A stretch of 64,000 bases of DNA, from contig NZ_VDUZ01000018.1 in the NCBI RefSeq assembly GCF_008039615.1, forward strand, positions 62,001 to 126,000. The letters are read 5' to 3'. Below, piece after piece: positions 33,022 to 40,281 of this stretch. Source of the DNA: Vineibacter terrae. Its GTDB lineage: Bacteria > Pseudomonadota > Alphaproteobacteria > Reyranellales > Reyranellaceae. The position numbers were made by a program, and so were the translations under genes. Under the pieces are notes generated by a model, which saw nothing but the letters and a program-made list of their open reading frames with translations, had not been told where the DNA came from and did not search any database. Position 1 is the first letter of the stretch, and each line of letters opens with the position of its first letter.

Positions 33022-33495
33022 ATGACGATGTCAGGGACGGAAGCGTGGCGCCCGGAGCGGGCGGCCGAGATCATTGCCCAAGGCGCGGGGGCACCGGGCG
33101 CGGCATTGCCGATCCTGCATGCCCTGCAGGAAGCGTTCGGCCATGTGCCTGAGGCCGCAGTTCCGATGCTGGCGGATGCGCTCAATCTGACGCGCGCCGA
33201 GGTGCACGGCGTGGTGAGCTTCTACCATGACTTCCGCCGCGCGCCGCCGGGCCGCCATGTGCTGCGCCTGTGCCGGGCCGAGGCCTGCCAGTCGATGGGC
33301 GCCGAGGCCTTGGCGGCGCAGGCGGTGCTTCAGGTCGGCTGGGGCCAGACCAGCGCCGATCATGCCGTCACCTTGGAGCCGGTGTACTGCCTTGGGCTGT
33401 GCGCGGTGGCGCCGGCCGGCCTGATCGATGGCGCGCCCGTTGGGCGGCTGGACAGCGCCCGGCTGCAGGCGCTGATCGACGAGGCGCGGGTGTAG
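33022..33495 (+). CDS. fdsG: NAD-dependent formate dehydrogenase gamma subunit-like protein (NuoE family)
   Basis: A 157-residue thioredoxin-fold [2Fe-2S] protein related to NuoE. The N-terminal helical part has PILHALQEAFGHVPEAAVPML and RAEVHGVVSFYHDFR; the cluster ligands are CRAEAC and CLGLC (four Cys). In FdsGBACD-type formate dehydrogenases it passes electrons between the molybdenum subunit and the flavin subunit FdsB, encoded 2 bases downstream. The ATG at 33022 is followed by a second at 33028; an ATG at 32950 is also in frame. No alpha subunit gene follows the pair. Confidence 0.87.
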   Translation: MTMSGTEAWRPERAAEIIAQGAGAPGAALPILHALQEAFGHVPEAAVPMLADALNLTRAEVHGVVSFYHDFRRAPPGRHVLRLCRAEACQSMGAEALAAQAVLQVGWGQTSADHAVTLEPVYCLGLCAVAPAGLIDGAPVGRLDSARLQALIDEARV

Positions 33496-33497
33496 CC

Positions 33498-35057
33498 ATG
33501 GCCGCGCTTCGCCTGTTCGTTCCCCGTGACGCCGGCGCCCTGGCCGTGGGCGCCGACGCCGTGGCCGATGCGCTGCGCGCCGGCATCGAGCGCCGCGGCT
33601 TGTCGGCCGAGATCGTGCGCACCGGCTCGCGCGGCCTCTACTGGCTGGAGCCGATGGTCGAGGTCGCCACGGCGCAAGGCCGCATCGCCTTTGGGCCGGT
33701 GACGGCGGCGGATGTCGAGCCGCTGCTGGCGGCGGGACTACTGTCCGGCGGCGCCCACGAGCTGCGGCTCGGCGCACCCGAAGCGATCCCGTTCCTGCAG
33801 CGCCAGACGCGGCTCACCTTCGCGCGTTGCGGCATCGTCGACCCGCTGTCGCTGGACGACTACCGCGCCCACGGCGGCTGGCGCGGACTCGAGCGCGCCA
33901 TTGCCCTGCCGCCGGCCGATATCGTCGAGGCGGTGGTGCAGTCCGGTCTGCGCGGCCGCGGCGGCGCCGGCTTCCCGACCGGCATCAAATGGCGCACCGT
34001 GGCGCAGGCGCCGGCCGACCAGAAATACATCGTGTGCAACGCCGATGAAGGCGATTCGGGCACCTTCGCCGACCGCATGCTGATGGAAGGCGATCCCTTC
34101 GTGCTGATCGAAGGCATGGCGATCGCCGGCATCGCCGTCGGCGCCACCAAAGGCTACGTCTACATCCGCTCCGAGTATCCGCACGCCATCGCCACGCTGC
34201 GCGCCGCCATCATCGTGGCCCGCGCCGCCGGCTTCCTGGGCGCGACGGTCATGGGCACGCCGCATGCCTTCGAGCTGGAGGTGCGGGTCGGCGCCGGCGC
34301 TTATGTCTGCGGCGAGGAGACGGCGCTGCTCGACAGCCTGGAGGGCAAGCGCGGGCAGGTGCGGGCGAAGCCGCCGCTGCCGGCGCATCACGGCCTGTTC
34401 GGGCGCCCGACCGTGATCAATAACGTGTTGTCGCTGGCCGCGGTGCCGTTCATCCTCGGCGAGGGCGCTGCGGCCTATGCGGCGCTGGGCGTCGGCCGCT
34501 CGCGCGGCACCATGCCGATCCAGCTCGCCGGCAACATCCGGCACGGCGGCCTGTTCGAGGCCGCTTTCGGCCTCACCCTGGGTGAGCTGGTCGATGAGAT
34601 CGGCGGCGGCACGGCCAGCGGCCGGCCGGTGCGCGCGGTGCAGGTTGGTGGTCCGCTGGGCGCCTATTTCCCGCGCGCGCTGTTCGACACGCCGTTCGAT
34701 TACGAGGCGTTCGCGGCGCGTGATGGATTGCTGGGTCATGGCGGCATCGTGGTGTTCGACGACACCGTCGACATGGCGCGCCAGGCGCGCTTCGCCATGG
34801 AGTTCTGCGCCATCGAGTCCTGCGGCAAGTGCACGCCCTGCCGCATCGGCTCGACCCGCGGCACCGAGGTGATCGACCGCCTTATCCGCGGCGAGGGCGA
34901 TGCGGCTTCGCATCTCGCGCTGATCACCGACCTGTGCGAGACGCTGAAGTTCGGCTCGCTCTGCGCGCTGGGCGGCTTCACGCCCTATCCGGTGATGAGC
35001 GCCATCCGCCATTTCCCCGAGGACTTCCGCGCGGCCGCGGTATCGTCGTTGTCCTGA
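33498..35057 (+). CDS. fdsB: NAD-dependent formate dehydrogenase beta subunit-like protein (NuoF family)
   Basis: A 519-residue flavoprotein. An N-terminal thioredoxin-like domain (residues 1-100) typical of FdsB precedes the NuoF core: GRGGAGFPTGIKW (NADH site), CNADEGDSGTFADR (FMN site), GAGAYVCGEETALLDSLEG, and the [4Fe-4S] ligands ESCGKCTPCRIG plus Cys in GSLCALGG. It would reduce NAD+ with electrons from the gamma subunit. The catalytic formate dehydrogenase alpha gene and accessory fdsC/fdsD genes, normally next, are absent; LuxR-type regulators follow instead. Confidence 0.9.
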   Translation: MAALRLFVPRDAGALAVGADAVADALRAGIERRGLSAEIVRTGSRGLYWLEPMVEVATAQGRIAFGPVTAADVEPLLAAGLLSGGAHELRLGAPEAIPFLQRQTRLTFARCGIVDPLSLDDYRAHGGWRGLERAIALPPADIVEAVVQSGLRGRGGAGFPTGIKWRTVAQAPADQKYIVCNADEGDSGTFADRMLMEGDPFVLIEGMAIAGIAVGATKGYVYIRSEYPHAIATLRAAIIVARAAGFLGATVMGTPHAFELEVRVGAGAYVCGEETALLDSLEGKRGQVRAKPPLPAHHGLFGRPTVINNVLSLAAVPFILGEGAAAYAALGVGRSRGTMPIQLAGNIRHGGLFEAAFGLTLGELVDEIGGGTASGRPVRAVQVGGPLGAYFPRALFDTPFDYEAFAARDGLLGHGGIVVFDDTVDMARQARFAMEFCAIESCGKCTPCRIGSTRGTEVIDRLIRGEGDAASHLALITDLCETLKFGSLCALGGFTPYPVMSAIRHFPEDFRAAAVSSLS

Positions 35058-35160
35058 TATCCTCAGCGTCGCCGCGCTCGACGTGACAGGAGAGCCATCG
35101 CCCGGCATCATGGTGGTTGGCGGGTCGCACCGCCATGGATGGACAGCGGTAGGGCCTGGG

Positions 35161-36279
35161 GTGACGGGAAGTTCCTCGCCTGGGCGGCACGACGTCCTGG
35201 ACATCATCGGGTTGATCCAGGATGCCGCGCTTGATCCTACGGCATGGCCGCATGTCGTGGCCGGCATGATGCGGCAGTTCGACGGGATCGCCGGCGTCCT
35301 GGTGATCAACAGCGCCGACGCCGACAACGGCTGCAGCATGGTGCAGCATGGCGTCGTTCCGGAATTTCAGAAGCGGTATTTCGACTATTTCGCGCGCCTT
35401 GATCCCGTGTTCGCGGCGCATTCGCGGCTGGAGGTGGGCCGACCCATCTGCTTGTCGCCCTTTGCACCGGGCGGCCTCTTCACCGACGGCGAGTTCTATA
35501 GCGACTGGTTCGCGGCGCAGGGGTTTTACGACGGGCTGGGCGCCGTCGTTTACAGCCATGGCGAACGGCGGCTGTGGCTGTCGGTTGCGCGGCCCGAGAA
35601 CGGGCTGGCGCTGGACCATGTGGAGGGCTTCGCGCGCCTGTTGCCGTTCGTCACGCGCGCGCTGCGCGTCGCGGAGCGGCTGGGTACGCTGACCGATCGG
35701 CAGGCGGCGCTGCACGACACCTTGGCGGCGGCCACGCACGGCGTGATGCTCGTTGACCGTCAGCATCGTCCTGTCTTCGTCAACCCGGCCGCCGAGGCGC
35801 TGCTGCGCCGCGGCCAGCCGCTGCGGGTACGGTCGGGACGATTGGTGGCGTGCGACGTGGCGGTGGACACGGCGCTGCAGATCGCGCTGGCTGCCGGCCG
35901 CGTGTGCGATCTCGCGGTGCCGCGGCACGGGCAGCGGCCGCTGCTGCTGAGTGTCGTGCCGGTCGGCCGGCGGGCCGCGGATGGCGCCGGCCTCGATGCA
36001 TCGGTCGCTGCGATGATCGTTGCTTCGGACCCGGATATGCGGCCCTGGCCCCGGCTGGAGGGTTTCGCGCGCCTCTATGGCCTGACGGCGGCCGAGGCCA
36101 AGGTCCTCGCGGCCTTGCTCGATGGTGATGGCCTGGAGCAGGCTGCTGATCGCCTCGGTGTCGGGCGCGCCACCGTCAAGACCCACCTCAACCGCATTCT
36201 CGGCAAGACCAGCTGCTTGCGGCAGAACGAGCTGATCCGCCTCATCGCCCGCACGTTGCCATCCTTGCGGGAGCAATAG
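35161..36279 (+). CDS. LuxR-type helix-turn-helix regulator, tandem paralogue 1
   Basis: A 372-residue protein. N-terminal alpha/beta region with LIQDAALDPTAWPHVVAGMM and FYSDWFAAQGFYDGLGAVV, a PAS-like middle (GVMLVDRQHRPVFVNPAAEALL), and a C-terminal LuxR/FixJ HTH: LTAAEAKVLAALLDGDGLEQAADRLGV then RATVKTHLNRILGKT. It is the first of three paralogues in a row. The GTG at 35161 is chosen because it aligns with the starts of the other two; an ATG at 35110 and a GTG at 35083 are in frame upstream. Signal and targets unknown; no sensor kinase is adjacent. Confidence 0.8.
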   Translation: MTGSSSPGRHDVLDIIGLIQDAALDPTAWPHVVAGMMRQFDGIAGVLVINSADADNGCSMVQHGVVPEFQKRYFDYFARLDPVFAAHSRLEVGRPICLSPFAPGGLFTDGEFYSDWFAAQGFYDGLGAVVYSHGERRLWLSVARPENGLALDHVEGFARLLPFVTRALRVAERLGTLTDRQAALHDTLAAATHGVMLVDRQHRPVFVNPAAEALLRRGQPLRVRSGRLVACDVAVDTALQIALAAGRVCDLAVPRHGQRPLLLSVVPVGRRAADGAGLDASVAAMIVASDPDMRPWPRLEGFARLYGLTAAEAKVLAALLDGDGLEQAADRLGVGRATVKTHLNRILGKTSCLRQNELIRLIARTLPSLREQ

Positions 36280-36396
36280 AAGTGTACGCTCACTTGCAGA
36301 TGGGAAGTCATTCTGGCATCATGTACCTGACAGCGACCGGCCGGGCGTTCCCCCCACGGCACGCTTGGTCGGCCATGGTTGCGTGCGCCGCAACGG

Positions 36397-37548
36397 ATGG
36401 TGAGGGTGATGCTGGCAACCCTGCCGGAGCCGGATCTGGGCATCGTCGATGCGCTGCAGGACGCAGCGCTCGACCCGAGCCTGTGGCGTGACGCGCTGGA
36501 GCGTGTGGCGCACCGCATCGGCTGCATCGGCGGTGGCATCCTGACCCAGGACCCGATCCTCAAGACGGGTTCGGCCTTGGCCGGGTTCGGCATCGACCTG
36601 GCGCATACGGAGCAGTACTTCCGGCATTACGCGCATGTGAACCCGATGCTTCACCGTGCGATCATGCCGCCGCTGGGACAGCCGCTGACCGCCGCGGCGC
36701 TGATGCCGCGCCATGCCTTCGCGATGACCGAGTTCTGCAACGATTGGATCCGGCCGCAGGGCTTCAGCGATGCCGTGGGCGTGGTGGTGCATCGTGACGG
36801 CACGCAGTTCACCTGGCTGTCGGCGATGCGCCCGCACTGCGTCGACGATTGGCAGCGCGCCGATCTCGACGCGCTGGCGCGACTGGCGCCGCATGTCACG
36901 CGCGCGCTGCGTGTGGCGCACCGGCTGGGCGTGCTCGAGGAGCATCAGCGGGCACTGCAAGAGGCGCTCGACCAGGTCGCGCATGCCACCATGCTGATCG
37001 ACCGGCGTGGCCGGCTGGTCTTCGCCAACGCGGTGGCCGAGGCGCTTCTGGGCGCGCAGCAGACGCTTACGGTCGCGCATGGGCGCCTGCTGGCGTGCCA
37101 CCCCGCGGCCGATGCGGCGCTGCAGGCGGCGCTGGCGCGCAGCCTGTCGCACCGCCGCGACGAGCAGCACGGCATCGAGGATGTCCCGCTGCCGCGCGCC
37201 GAACGGCGGCCGCTGGTGCTGAGCGTGATGCCGGCGCGTGGCCACGCCGCGGAGCGGCTGGACCCGGATCTGCGGGTGGCCGCGATCGTCGTTGCCGTCG
37301 ACCCCGAGGCCCGGCCGTGGCCGCGGCTTGGCGGCTTCATGAACGCCTATGGCCTGACGCCGGCCGAGGGCAAGGTGCTGGATGCCGTGGTCGACGGCGA
37401 TGGTGTCGACGCGATCGCCGATCGGCTCGGCATCCGCCGCACCACGGTGAAGACTCATCTCAATCGCATCCTCGGCAAGACCGGCACGACGCGTCAGCAC
37501 GAGCTGATCCGCCTGGTCGCCGGTTCCGTGCCGCCGCTGCGCAGTTGA
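36397..37548 (+). CDS. LuxR-type helix-turn-helix regulator, tandem paralogue 2
   Basis: A 383-residue paralogue of its upstream neighbour, with the same order: DALQDAALDPSLWRDALERV, FCNDWIRPQGFSDAVGVVV, PAS-like TMLIDRRGRLVFANAVAEALL, and HTH LTPAEGKVLDAVVDGDGVDAIADRLGI, RTTVKTHLNRILGKTGTTRQHELIRLV. The ATG at 36397 or 36409 is the likely start (MLATLPEPDLG). The three copies are divergent enough that duplication is not recent. No acyl-homoserine-lactone domain is seen, so quorum sensing of the LuxI/LuxR type is not implied. Confidence 0.8.
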   Translation: MVRVMLATLPEPDLGIVDALQDAALDPSLWRDALERVAHRIGCIGGGILTQDPILKTGSALAGFGIDLAHTEQYFRHYAHVNPMLHRAIMPPLGQPLTAAALMPRHAFAMTEFCNDWIRPQGFSDAVGVVVHRDGTQFTWLSAMRPHCVDDWQRADLDALARLAPHVTRALRVAHRLGVLEEHQRALQEALDQVAHATMLIDRRGRLVFANAVAEALLGAQQTLTVAHGRLLACHPAADAALQAALARSLSHRRDEQHGIEDVPLPRAERRPLVLSVMPARGHAAERLDPDLRVAAIVVAVDPEARPWPRLGGFMNAYGLTPAEGKVLDAVVDGDGVDAIADRLGIRRTTVKTHLNRILGKTGTTRQHELIRLVAGSVPPLRS

Positions 37549-37559
37549 AGCGTGCCTTG

Positions 37560-38713
37560 ATGACGCGAATGCGTGCTGTCGAGGCGATCGAGACCGTCGG
37601 GCTGATCCAGGATGCCGCTATCGATGCGGCGCTCTGGCCGAGCGCCGTCGAGCACATGATGCGGCAGCTTGACGGCATCGCGGGCGGCCTGGTCGTCAGC
37701 GATCGCTGTGGCGGGCTCACGCTTGCCGCCATCGGCTTCGATCAGTCATATGTGGCGCGATACTTCGATCACTACATGCGCTTCGATCCGATGCTGCAGG
37801 CCCAGCCGCTCCCGGACCTAGGCCGTGCGGCAATATCGTCGACGCTGCTGCCCGCAGGCGCGTTCCTGAAGAGTGAGTTCTTCAACGACTGGCTCGCGCC
37901 GCAAGGGTTCCGCGATTGCTTCAGCGCCGTCGTGCATCGCCAGGGCGAGCGGCACGCCAGGCTTCACATCGTTCCACGGCGTTGCGCGGACGACTCTCTT
38001 GCGCGCGCCATGGCCATGTTCAAGCCCTTCTTCCGTCCATCATCGGTGCGCTGCGCGTGGCCCAGCGCCTGGAGCTGCTGCACGATCGGCAGGCAGCGCT
38101 GCAGGCCGCGCTTTCCGCCGCCGCGCCCGCGGTCATGCTGCTCGACAAGCGCGCACACGTGGTGTTCGCCAATCCGCAGGCGGAAGCATTGCTGGCGTCG
38201 AGCCAGGCTTTGCGTGTGAAGGGTGGCCGCCTGACTGCGTGCCATGCCACCGCCGATGCGGCGCTGCAGGCCGCGCTGGCGCCATCCCTGCGCAGCGCCG
38301 GCGACGCTCATCCCGGCGTCGTGGATCTTGCCCTGCTGCGGCCGGGGCAGCGGCCGCTGGCGGTGAGCGTGGTGCCGGTCAGCCAGCGCGTGACGGACCG
38401 CCTCGATGCCGGCCGGCGCGTTGCCGCGATGATCCTCGTCGCCGATCCGCAGATGCGACGGTCGTTGCGGCTCGAGGGCTTCATGCAGGCCTGTGGCCTG
38501 ACGCCGGCCGAAGGCAGGGTGCTGGCAGCCATTGTGGAGGGCGACGGACTGGAACGGATCGCCGGCCGGCTGGGCGTCGGACGGGCCACCGTGAAGACCC
38601 ATCTCAATCGCATCCTGGCCAAGACCGGCACGACGCGTCAGCACGCGCTGGTCCGCCTGGTCGCCGCATCCGGGCTGCCGTCTCTGGGACAACGCGGGAT
38701 CCTCCCCGACTGA
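37560..38713 (+). pseudogene. LuxR-type regulator, tandem paralogue 3, frameshifted
   Basis: Two frames carry one gene. From ATG 37560 the N-terminal part (VGLIQDAAIDAALWPSAVEHM, FFNDWLAPQGFRDCFSAVVH) aligns with the upstream paralogues to about AMFKPF. From about 38030 the homology continues in another frame: LLPSIIGALRVAQRLELL, PAS-like VMLLDKRAHVVFANPQAEALL and HTH LTPAEGRVLAAIVEGDG, RATVKTHLNRILAKT. The break lies at 38021-38040, in the run CCCTTCTTCC, and a single lost base would explain it. Either a recent inactivation or a sequencing error. As read, the product would lose its PAS-like and HTH parts and end in unrelated sequence at 38219. Confidence 0.8.
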
Positions 38714-38734: not shown

Positions 38735-39490
38735 TCACGGCCGCTGCCGTCCGGTCAGCGATGGGATGACGTGCACTGCCTGACCGTTGCGCGCATCGAC
38801 GATGGCGGTGCATATCGGTTCGATGAAAGCGATCTTGCGCTGGCCTTCGACGGCCCCCTGCCCGGCAGGCGGCGGTGTCACGATCCGCTGCGTGAAGGGC
38901 GCTCGCGGCGGCCCGGCCACCAGCAGCCGCAGATGGCCGCCCAGCGCGGCGTCGGCGCTCGCTATTTTGAACCGGTAGCCGCCGTCCTTGCCCTTGACCC
39001 TGTGCCGGCCGTCTTGCGTCGGCCAGTCCGGTCCGAAATCGGATGGCGCGACCGTCACGTTGGCCACGACCGTGAGGGCATAGTCGGTCGGCGCGTGCAG
39101 ATCTTCGTGGATGACGACGGTGACGTCGACGATCCGTTCGGTCGGCGTGGACGGCAGGAGAACGCGCGCCGTCTGGATGTAGTCGAGCTCGATCTCGCCG
39201 GTTGCGGGGAGGTATTCCACCCGCGGCAGGCTGATGCCGACGATCAACGATTGGGGGAACCTGCCCGCGATCTCGGCGGCCCGGGTGACCGTCTGCTGCG
39301 GCGCCAATGATCCAGTGTTGCCGGCGGCCTGCATGGCCTCGAAGAACGTCTTGACTGTCGCGGCCGGCATGCCGGCCGCGACCAGGTCATGGCAGCGGTC
39401 GGGCCACGCCGGCATTTGCGCTGGCGTCACGGCGGGCAGGACGCCGAAGGCCAACGCAAGAGCGGCCGTCCGGCAGGGATGGGGGATCAT
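38735..39490 (-). CDS. Hypothetical exported protein
   Basis: A 251-residue protein I do not recognise. Signal peptide (RTAALALAFGVLPAVTPAQ, cut near residue 25). The mature part has PDRCHDLVAAGMPAATVKTFFEAM, then largely beta-type sequence with IELDYIQTARVLLP, VDVTVVIHEDLHAPTDYALTVVANVTV and a proline-rich FTQRIVTPPPAGQG near the end; two Cys (PDRCH, EPICTA) could form a disulfide. Convergent with the regulator pseudogene. Probably periplasmic; function unknown. Confidence 0.65.
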   Translation of the reverse strand: MIPHPCRTAALALAFGVLPAVTPAQMPAWPDRCHDLVAAGMPAATVKTFFEAMQAAGNTGSLAPQQTVTRAAEIAGRFPQSLIVGISLPRVEYLPATGEIELDYIQTARVLLPSTPTERIVDVTVVIHEDLHAPTDYALTVVANVTVAPSDFGPDWPTQDGRHRVKGKDGGYRFKIASADAALGGHLRLLVAGPPRAPFTQRIVTPPPAGQGAVEGQRKIAFIEPICTAIVDARNGQAVHVIPSLTGRQRP

Positions 39491-39687
39491 GATCGGCTCT
39501 CCACCAGGAGCATCACCCTACCTGTTCTTGCCGCGGCCTGCGTCAACCCTGAGGTGGATGCAGGCGCAGGATCGATCCGGCCGGCCGCGCAACACGTGAA
39601 ACCAAGATGGTCCGGCCGCGCAGTCATCGCGTTACAGGGCGCGCCTATTGTCCCGCCCGTTCAAGCACAGCACATGGGAGCTTCGAG

Positions 39688-40281
39688 ATGGGCACGCCAA
39701 TCACTGGTCCGCAATCACCGATCAGGCAGCGCTTCATGATGATCTGCAAGGCATTGCTGCCGCCGCCGGGGACGCTCACCAACGGCCAGAAGCCGGCGGG
39801 CGCTTCGGGCACCGGCTGCGGCGAGTTTCCGGGCCGGGTGTTCAAGCGGGTTCCGGTCATCCCCAACGGCCACTGGGGCGCGTTCAAGATGATGGTGGCC
39901 GGGGCGGGCCTGTGCTACCTCACCACCCCGATGACCCAGTGGGAGCAGTTCGCCCAGGCGGTGGACAAGAAATACGGATCGAAGACCTGGGTTCCCTTTG
40001 CGGGCAACCGGCCGCTTCCGGGCGACATCTACACCCTGACCAAGTTCGACAAGTCGACCGAGTTCCAGCACGTGGGTGTCATCGTCAACGCCGATGGCAA
40101 CGACTGGACGACGGCGGACGGCGGGCAGGGCAACGGCTGGCAATCCGGCTTCGTGAAGCGGAGCTTCCATTCCGACGGCCAGATCGACGGCGAGTTCGGC
40201 AACAAGGCGCGGCTCAAGGGCTGGGTGAATCTCGATGCGCTGTATGCCGTCGCGAATTCTGCCTTTCCCAAGACCTTGTGA
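39688..40281 (+). CDS. Putative papain-fold (CHAP/NlpC-like) peptidase or amidase
   Basis: A 197-residue protein. The order TGCGEFPG (Cys44), LPGDIYTL, STEFQHVGVIVNADG (His128) and WTTADGGQG (Asp144) matches the Cys-His-Asp/Asn plan of CHAP/NlpC-P60 domains: GDI before a strand with H-V-G-V-I, then an acidic G-G-Q-G turn. The overall sequence is not one I can place in a named family. There is no signal peptide or membrane segment, so it would be cytosolic or exported by another route. ATG at 39688 has GGAG eight bases upstream. Neighbours give no hint of its role. Confidence 0.6.
   Translation: MGTPITGPQSPIRQRFMMICKALLPPPGTLTNGQKPAGASGTGCGEFPGRVFKRVPVIPNGHWGAFKMMVAGAGLCYLTTPMTQWEQFAQAVDKKYGSKTWVPFAGNRPLPGDIYTLTKFDKSTEFQHVGVIVNADGNDWTTADGGQGNGWQSGFVKRSFHSDGQIDGEFGNKARLKGWVNLDALYAVANSAFPKTL

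Follow-up and report, generated by a model that had tools for sequence, protein, structure and literature searches.

A tandem array of LuxR-type regulators downstream of fdsGB in Vineibacter terrae, with a frame jump in the third copy

The window that we analyzed, a stretch of 64,000 nucleotides (positions 62001-126000 of contig 18), comes from a draft genome of 8.76 Mb (135 contigs; G000, "the own genome" below) and contains three neighboring genes for LuxR-type regulators. Our best explanation, which we hold with moderate confidence, is that they are one-component transcription factors of LuxR-solo-like type, in a tandem array specific to this lineage, and that copy 3 was recently frameshifted, which probably makes it a young null allele. 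Overall, this is a real and mostly ordinary small regulator family with one broken member.

Results

Three tandem genes share one architecture

A reading of the sequence alone had proposed three tandem, co-oriented LuxR-type regulators, and copies 1, 2, and 3 (c1, c2, and c3) are all present (Table 1). The GerE HTH (PF00196) scored above the Pfam cut-off of 23.5 bits in each of them (25.4, 36.1, and 31.9 bits, respectively). Because c1 and c2 match each other with E of about 1e-87 to 1e-93 (43% identity over the full length), and because c3 is 39-42% identical to both in its N-terminal half and 57% identical in its C-terminal half, the similarity of the three copies is far beyond chance. The array proteins have about 380 residues, as compared with about 240 for LuxR proteins (from the lengths of the structure-search targets). 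Two of the starts are uncertain: an in-frame ATG at 35110 is possible for c1 and a TTG at 36379 for c2.

Table 1. Features of the array and its upstream neighbors (positions in the window).
Feature	Position	Strand	Description
fdsG (gamma subunit)	33022..33495	+	NF004638 over cut-off; start approximate
fdsB (NAD-dependent formate dehydrogenase beta subunit)	33498..35057	+	directly upstream of the array, co-oriented
Copy 1 (c1)	35161..36279	+	LuxR-LBD/GAF-like half (predicted), PAS-like segment, GerE HTH
Copy 2 (c2)	36409..37548	+	same plan as c1, intact
Copy 3 (c3), whole	37560-38713	+	spread over two frames
c3, frame as started	37560..38219	+	219-aa product; native sequence up to residue 155 or so, the rest an unrelated tail
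c3, C-terminal half	38027..38713	+	lies in the other frame, with no convincing start of its own; comprises linker, PAS-like segment, and HTH
Frame change of homology in c3	38022..38030	+	from alignments, codon-position G+C, and tblastn with copy D

The proposal of a common plan held for the architecture and for the GerE HTH, which all copies have. The PAS-like core was matched by PAS_8 or PAS in c1, c2, and the C-terminal half of c3 (E of 0.0038 or better), yet below the Pfam cut-off, and the N-terminal half proved to have a recognizable predicted fold (see below). The label "FixJ-type" has to be dropped: no Pfam model of a phospho-receiver domain was found in the array proteins up to an E of 0.1. 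With an HTH of the LuxR/NarL type and no receiver, they do not belong to the response regulators of the FixJ/NarL kind.

A congener has four intact copies

We searched 61 genomes with the N-terminal half of c3. Fifteen had a match at E of 0.001 or better, and among the 61, the only close matches outside the own genome were in one congener (G002). In this congener, four copies, A to D, lie in a row after fdsB, and all are open frames. The pairs of orthologs are c1 and B (63% identity), c2 and C (72%), and the N-terminal half of c3 and D (63-64%), while A has no partner in the own genome. The tree of N-terminal halves joined c3 and D with support of 100/99, and on these grounds D can be taken as the clear ortholog of the N-terminal half of c3. 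A gene for an LLM-class oxidoreductase follows the array in G002, and one is likewise found further on in the window. Between the array and that gene, the window has two other genes (38735-40281); the one at 39607-40281 has a homolog (72%) directly after fdsB in another congener (G001), where the array was not found.

The wider regulator family has members at E of 1e-30 or better in 27 of the 75 genomes of the taxonomic family, with 67 matches in total. These other members are distant paralogs, and 1 of the 67 has an internal stop. Neighboring pairs of the family recur (for example, on contig 4 of the own genome, at 84081 and 85223). Two loci are worth recording. L127 (G010:C1:1746973-1748055) is a distant paralog with one internal TAA and is possibly another broken member. 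L111 (G002:C10:132319-132888) matches the array proteins in their C-terminal (PAS-HTH) half only, and the tree of C-terminal halves places it beside the array.

The N-terminal half has a predicted sensor fold

In searches of c1, c2, and both halves of c3, no Pfam family matched the N-terminal half up to an E of 0.1, and NCBIfam gave no name either. When we searched the sequences of solved structures, the matches fell on the HTH and on a short stretch of PAS, and none of the 39 hits had its best stretch in the N-terminal half. In an AlphaFold2 model of c2 (30 rows; mean pLDDT 86.8, pTM 0.70), residues 4-175 matched the LBD of VqsR (Z of 14.5 over 163 residues, rmsd 3.4), followed by the LBD of LasR (Z of 13.7) and the GAF domains of phytochromes (13.0). 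The N-terminal half is thus predicted to have a LuxR ligand-domain/GAF-like fold. Because Autoind_bind (PF03472) had no match in c1, c2, or either half of c3 (Pfam, up to an E of 0.1) and because the phytochrome GAF domains fit nearly as well, GAF would be an equally good name for the sensor. The description of this half as unusual is right insofar as Pfam leaves it unmatched, but its predicted fold is recognizable, with VqsR and LasR as the best matches.

A profile comparison (hhalign) with 12 autoinducer-binding domains gave a weak alignment that is colinear through the DP motif (112 columns, P = 0.0017, probability 15.5%). PMC4338825 gives nine invariant residues (TraR numbering) that mark AHL receptors, and the array copies do not have this set. 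In our reading of the hhalign alignment, the W57 and W85 positions are kept in none of the seven copies, G113 in two, D70 in five, and Y61 and P71 in all seven. Among HTH positions, E178 and L182 are kept in all seven copies and G188 in six. The own genome as a whole has no match to PF03472; among 58 genomes of the class, 12 have one. PF00765 (AHL synthase) had no match in the own genome either, but neither did the controls. We read the array proteins as LuxR-solo-like one-component regulators that are probably not AHL receptors.

Copy 3 is split between two frames

Up to about 38024, the homology of c3 lies in one frame; from about 38027 on, it lies in the frame one base earlier, which leaves room for one codon. 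The G+C pattern over codon positions also shifts by one there. Furthermore, tblastn with the intact copy D found two abutting pieces in c3, in frames 1 and 3. The sequence-only reading had put a frameshift within 38021-38040, with one base fewer, and both the interval and the direction fit; in the comparison with G002, the ortholog D is a single open frame and c3 is split in two. The jump is consistent with the loss of one base.

Both frames of c3 are free of stops together over about 37874-38219, an overlap that would allow programmed frameshifting to join them. But no slippery heptamer (X XXY YYZ) was found where both frames are open, and the ortholog D has one frame. We regard programmed frameshifting as extremely unlikely and rejected it on these two grounds. 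We also rejected an internal restart for the C-terminal half, as GTG at 38057 and later codons have no convincing ribosome site (by eye).

A recent lesion or an assembly error

Beyond the single jump, c3 has not lost conserved residues in excess. At 12 of the 85 columns on which the other six array proteins agree, c3 has a different residue, and the intact copies depart at 4-12. To call the set partly decaying, as had been done, is therefore too strong, and the lesion should either be of recent origin or result from misassembly.

If the frameshift were a sequencing or assembly error, then c3 would be an intact third regulator. We consider this unlikely, while still a serious contender. It would fit with a single lesion in about 1150 bases, with the ordinary number of departures, with the intactness of the ortholog D, and with the draft state of the genome. 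It would also fit with Tajima relative-rate tests of c3 against D, which were not significant over the full length with any of five outgroups (p = 0.24-1.0); for the N-terminal half, one of the five outgroups gave p = 0.04 (uncorrected). Against an error, the c3 gene has no homopolymer of 6 or more, the usual weak point, near the site or elsewhere. The dN/dS for c3 and D in the C-terminal half (0.34/0.64, as compared with 0.26/0.89 in the N-terminal half) also argues against it, as it is above the C-terminal values of the intact pairs c1-B (0.24/1.02) and c2-C (0.18/0.68), though orthology of c3 and D is doubtful there. Either relaxed constraint or mixed ancestry may account for the higher value.

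An estimate of the frameshift rate, from tblastn with the relatives' open frames, was void: neither run flagged the known break in c3, and one run covered 24 places only. (These runs did flag the fdsA/fdhD pair, which we read as two neighboring genes, and a reverse-strand pair opposite ybaB.) A scan of named genomes found distant relatives only, with a best identity of 32% among long matches.

Some sign of exchange between copies

Paralogs in the array are 26-45% identical in their sensor halves and 63-78% identical in the HTH. The identity of c3 and D falls from 64% in the N-terminal half to 48% in the PAS segment, where c3 is 48-56% identical to the other copies, while c1-B and c2-C retain 62% and 67%. 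The tree of C-terminal halves is star-like and did not join c3 to D, so c3 may not be a simple ortholog of D along its whole length. At HTH positions with the same residue, 38 of 47 codons are identical between c2 and c3, versus 31 of 53 between the orthologs c2 and C (Fisher p = 0.018) and 24 of 47 between c2 and c3 in the N-terminal half (p = 0.004; neither value is corrected for the number of pairs). This suggests some exchange between the neighboring copies 2 and 3. A run-permutation test on codons ignores uneven conservation along the gene, and we set it aside as evidence.

These observations also raise the possibility that c3 is a chimera, with its N-terminal half from a D-type copy and its C-terminal half from another copy via recombination or gene conversion, and with its frame perhaps lost at the junction. 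We view this as rather unlikely. In the C-terminal half, the AU test leaves the grouping of c3 with D unrejected (p = 0.34). The HTH codon identity of c2 and c3 is not significantly higher than that of c3 and D (30 of 47, p = 0.11), and several pairs of paralogs from different species have high HTH codon identity as well (0.70-0.76), so any exchange may be older, or the similarity may reflect constraint. Also, the breakpoint was not located to the frameshift. A chimeric origin would concern the history of c3 and would be compatible with our best explanation, that of a lineage-specific array with a recently frameshifted third copy.

The array sits in the place of fdsA

The array directly follows the fdsGB pair, which lies upstream in the same orientation, and the proposal of an expanded regulator set of undefined signal at this place is supported. 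In five of the seven relatives that we read (G011, G007, G010, G005, and G037), fdsA comes directly after fdsB and fdsGBA is contiguous. Congener G001 has fdsA on the contig of fdsB, at a distance of about 3 kb, and the 18 kb that was read around fdsB in congener G003 contains no fdsA. The best match to fdsA in the own genome is on contig 25, together with fdhD (L037 6717-10604). Because fdsA follows fdsB in relatives and is found with fdhD on contig 25 here, the array, judged by gene order, occupies the place of fdsA after the operon was split in this genus. (Upstream of fdsA, at L037 5520-5975, is a short reverse-strand gene that looks PIN-domain-like by eye.) Across 14 fdsB loci with flanks of 1.5 kb, c1/c2-like genes were present in two, those of G000 and G002. 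The position of the array after fdsB does not show that it regulates formate dehydrogenase. In the literature on tandem LuxR/PAS paralogs and formate dehydrogenase, or on gene conversion of LuxR DNA-binding domains, we recognized nothing on this array.

Discussion

How the array might work

In the explanation that we favor, each copy joins a predicted LuxR-LBD/GAF-like sensor at its N terminus, via a long linker helix, to a PAS-like domain and a GerE HTH, and would most likely be dimeric. A small and probably non-AHL ligand bound by that sensor, possibly together with a signal from the PAS-like domain, would alter the linker helix and thereby DNA binding. Given that the copies differ much in their sensor halves but little in the HTH, they would probably carry distinct signals to overlapping sites on the DNA. 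In copy 3, a recent single frameshift would have removed the DNA-binding half, and this copy would probably be a young null allele, with an intact ortholog in the congener.

A far more elaborate scheme can be imagined, in which the array evolves in concert as a signal-integration module: the sensor halves would diversify, the HTH halves would be kept alike by exchange between neighbors, several ligands would act on the same promoters, and c3, of mixed history, would be a TrlR-like sensor-only antagonist of its neighbors, encoded next to a split formate dehydrogenase operon under its partial control. We think that this is highly improbable.

The locus offers a natural small case in which tandem regulators diverge in their sensors and retain the part that binds DNA, and the congener, with its four intact copies, allows a comparison. 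A predicted fold can now be assigned to the N-terminal half that Pfam left blank, in a family with members in 27 of the 75 genomes. By itself, the frameshift is of little consequence, unless the truncated c3 product is active.

Comparison with known systems

According to PMC6341043 and PMC3907764, TrlR of octopine Ti plasmids comes from a traR-like gene with a single-base deletion; it has the ligand and dimerization domain but no DNA-binding domain, and it acts against TraR by forming heterodimers that block it. Going by that account, c3 is similar in being a paralogous LuxR-type gene in which a small frameshift removes the DNA-binding half, and a truncated product that acts as a dominant-negative partner would have a precedent. 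In the predicted structure of the 219-residue product, the sensor core is modeled confidently to about residue 160 (block-mean pLDDT of 80-95), followed by an unrelated and unstructured tail, and the gene lies beside two intact paralogs. However, the long linker helix, which spans residues 150-188 in the c2 model and is likely a dimer element, is cut at about residue 152 in c3, and the sensor half of c3 is just 33-38% identical to those of c1 and c2. Because the helix is cut and the sensor has diverged from its neighbors', we consider an active role for the product very unlikely. The retention of the full gene in the congener and the lack of clearly relaxed constraint in the C-terminal half of c3 also speak against it. 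In contrast to TrlR as described in those sources, c3 has a cut linker helix and far more diverged partners; the resemblance is in the kind of lesion only.

Two other groups of regulators are close to the array proteins. The first is the LuxR solos, including VqsR, which have the quorum-sensing-domain LuxR protein without a synthase. The array proteins are like them in the predicted N-terminal fold (Z of 14.5 to the VqsR LBD), in the TraR-type residues Y61 and P71 (all seven copies) and D70 (five of seven), and in the residues of the GerE HTH; they are unlike them in lacking W57, W85, and a match to PF03472 and in having an extra PAS-like domain and linker. The second group is the LuxR-type proteins VqmA and EL222, in which the sensor is a PAS/LOV domain. 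Both were among the structure matches of the array, and the array proteins share with them a PAS-like domain (matched below the Pfam cut-off) that is joined to a GerE HTH, but have an additional LuxR-LBD/GAF-like half, by prediction, in front.
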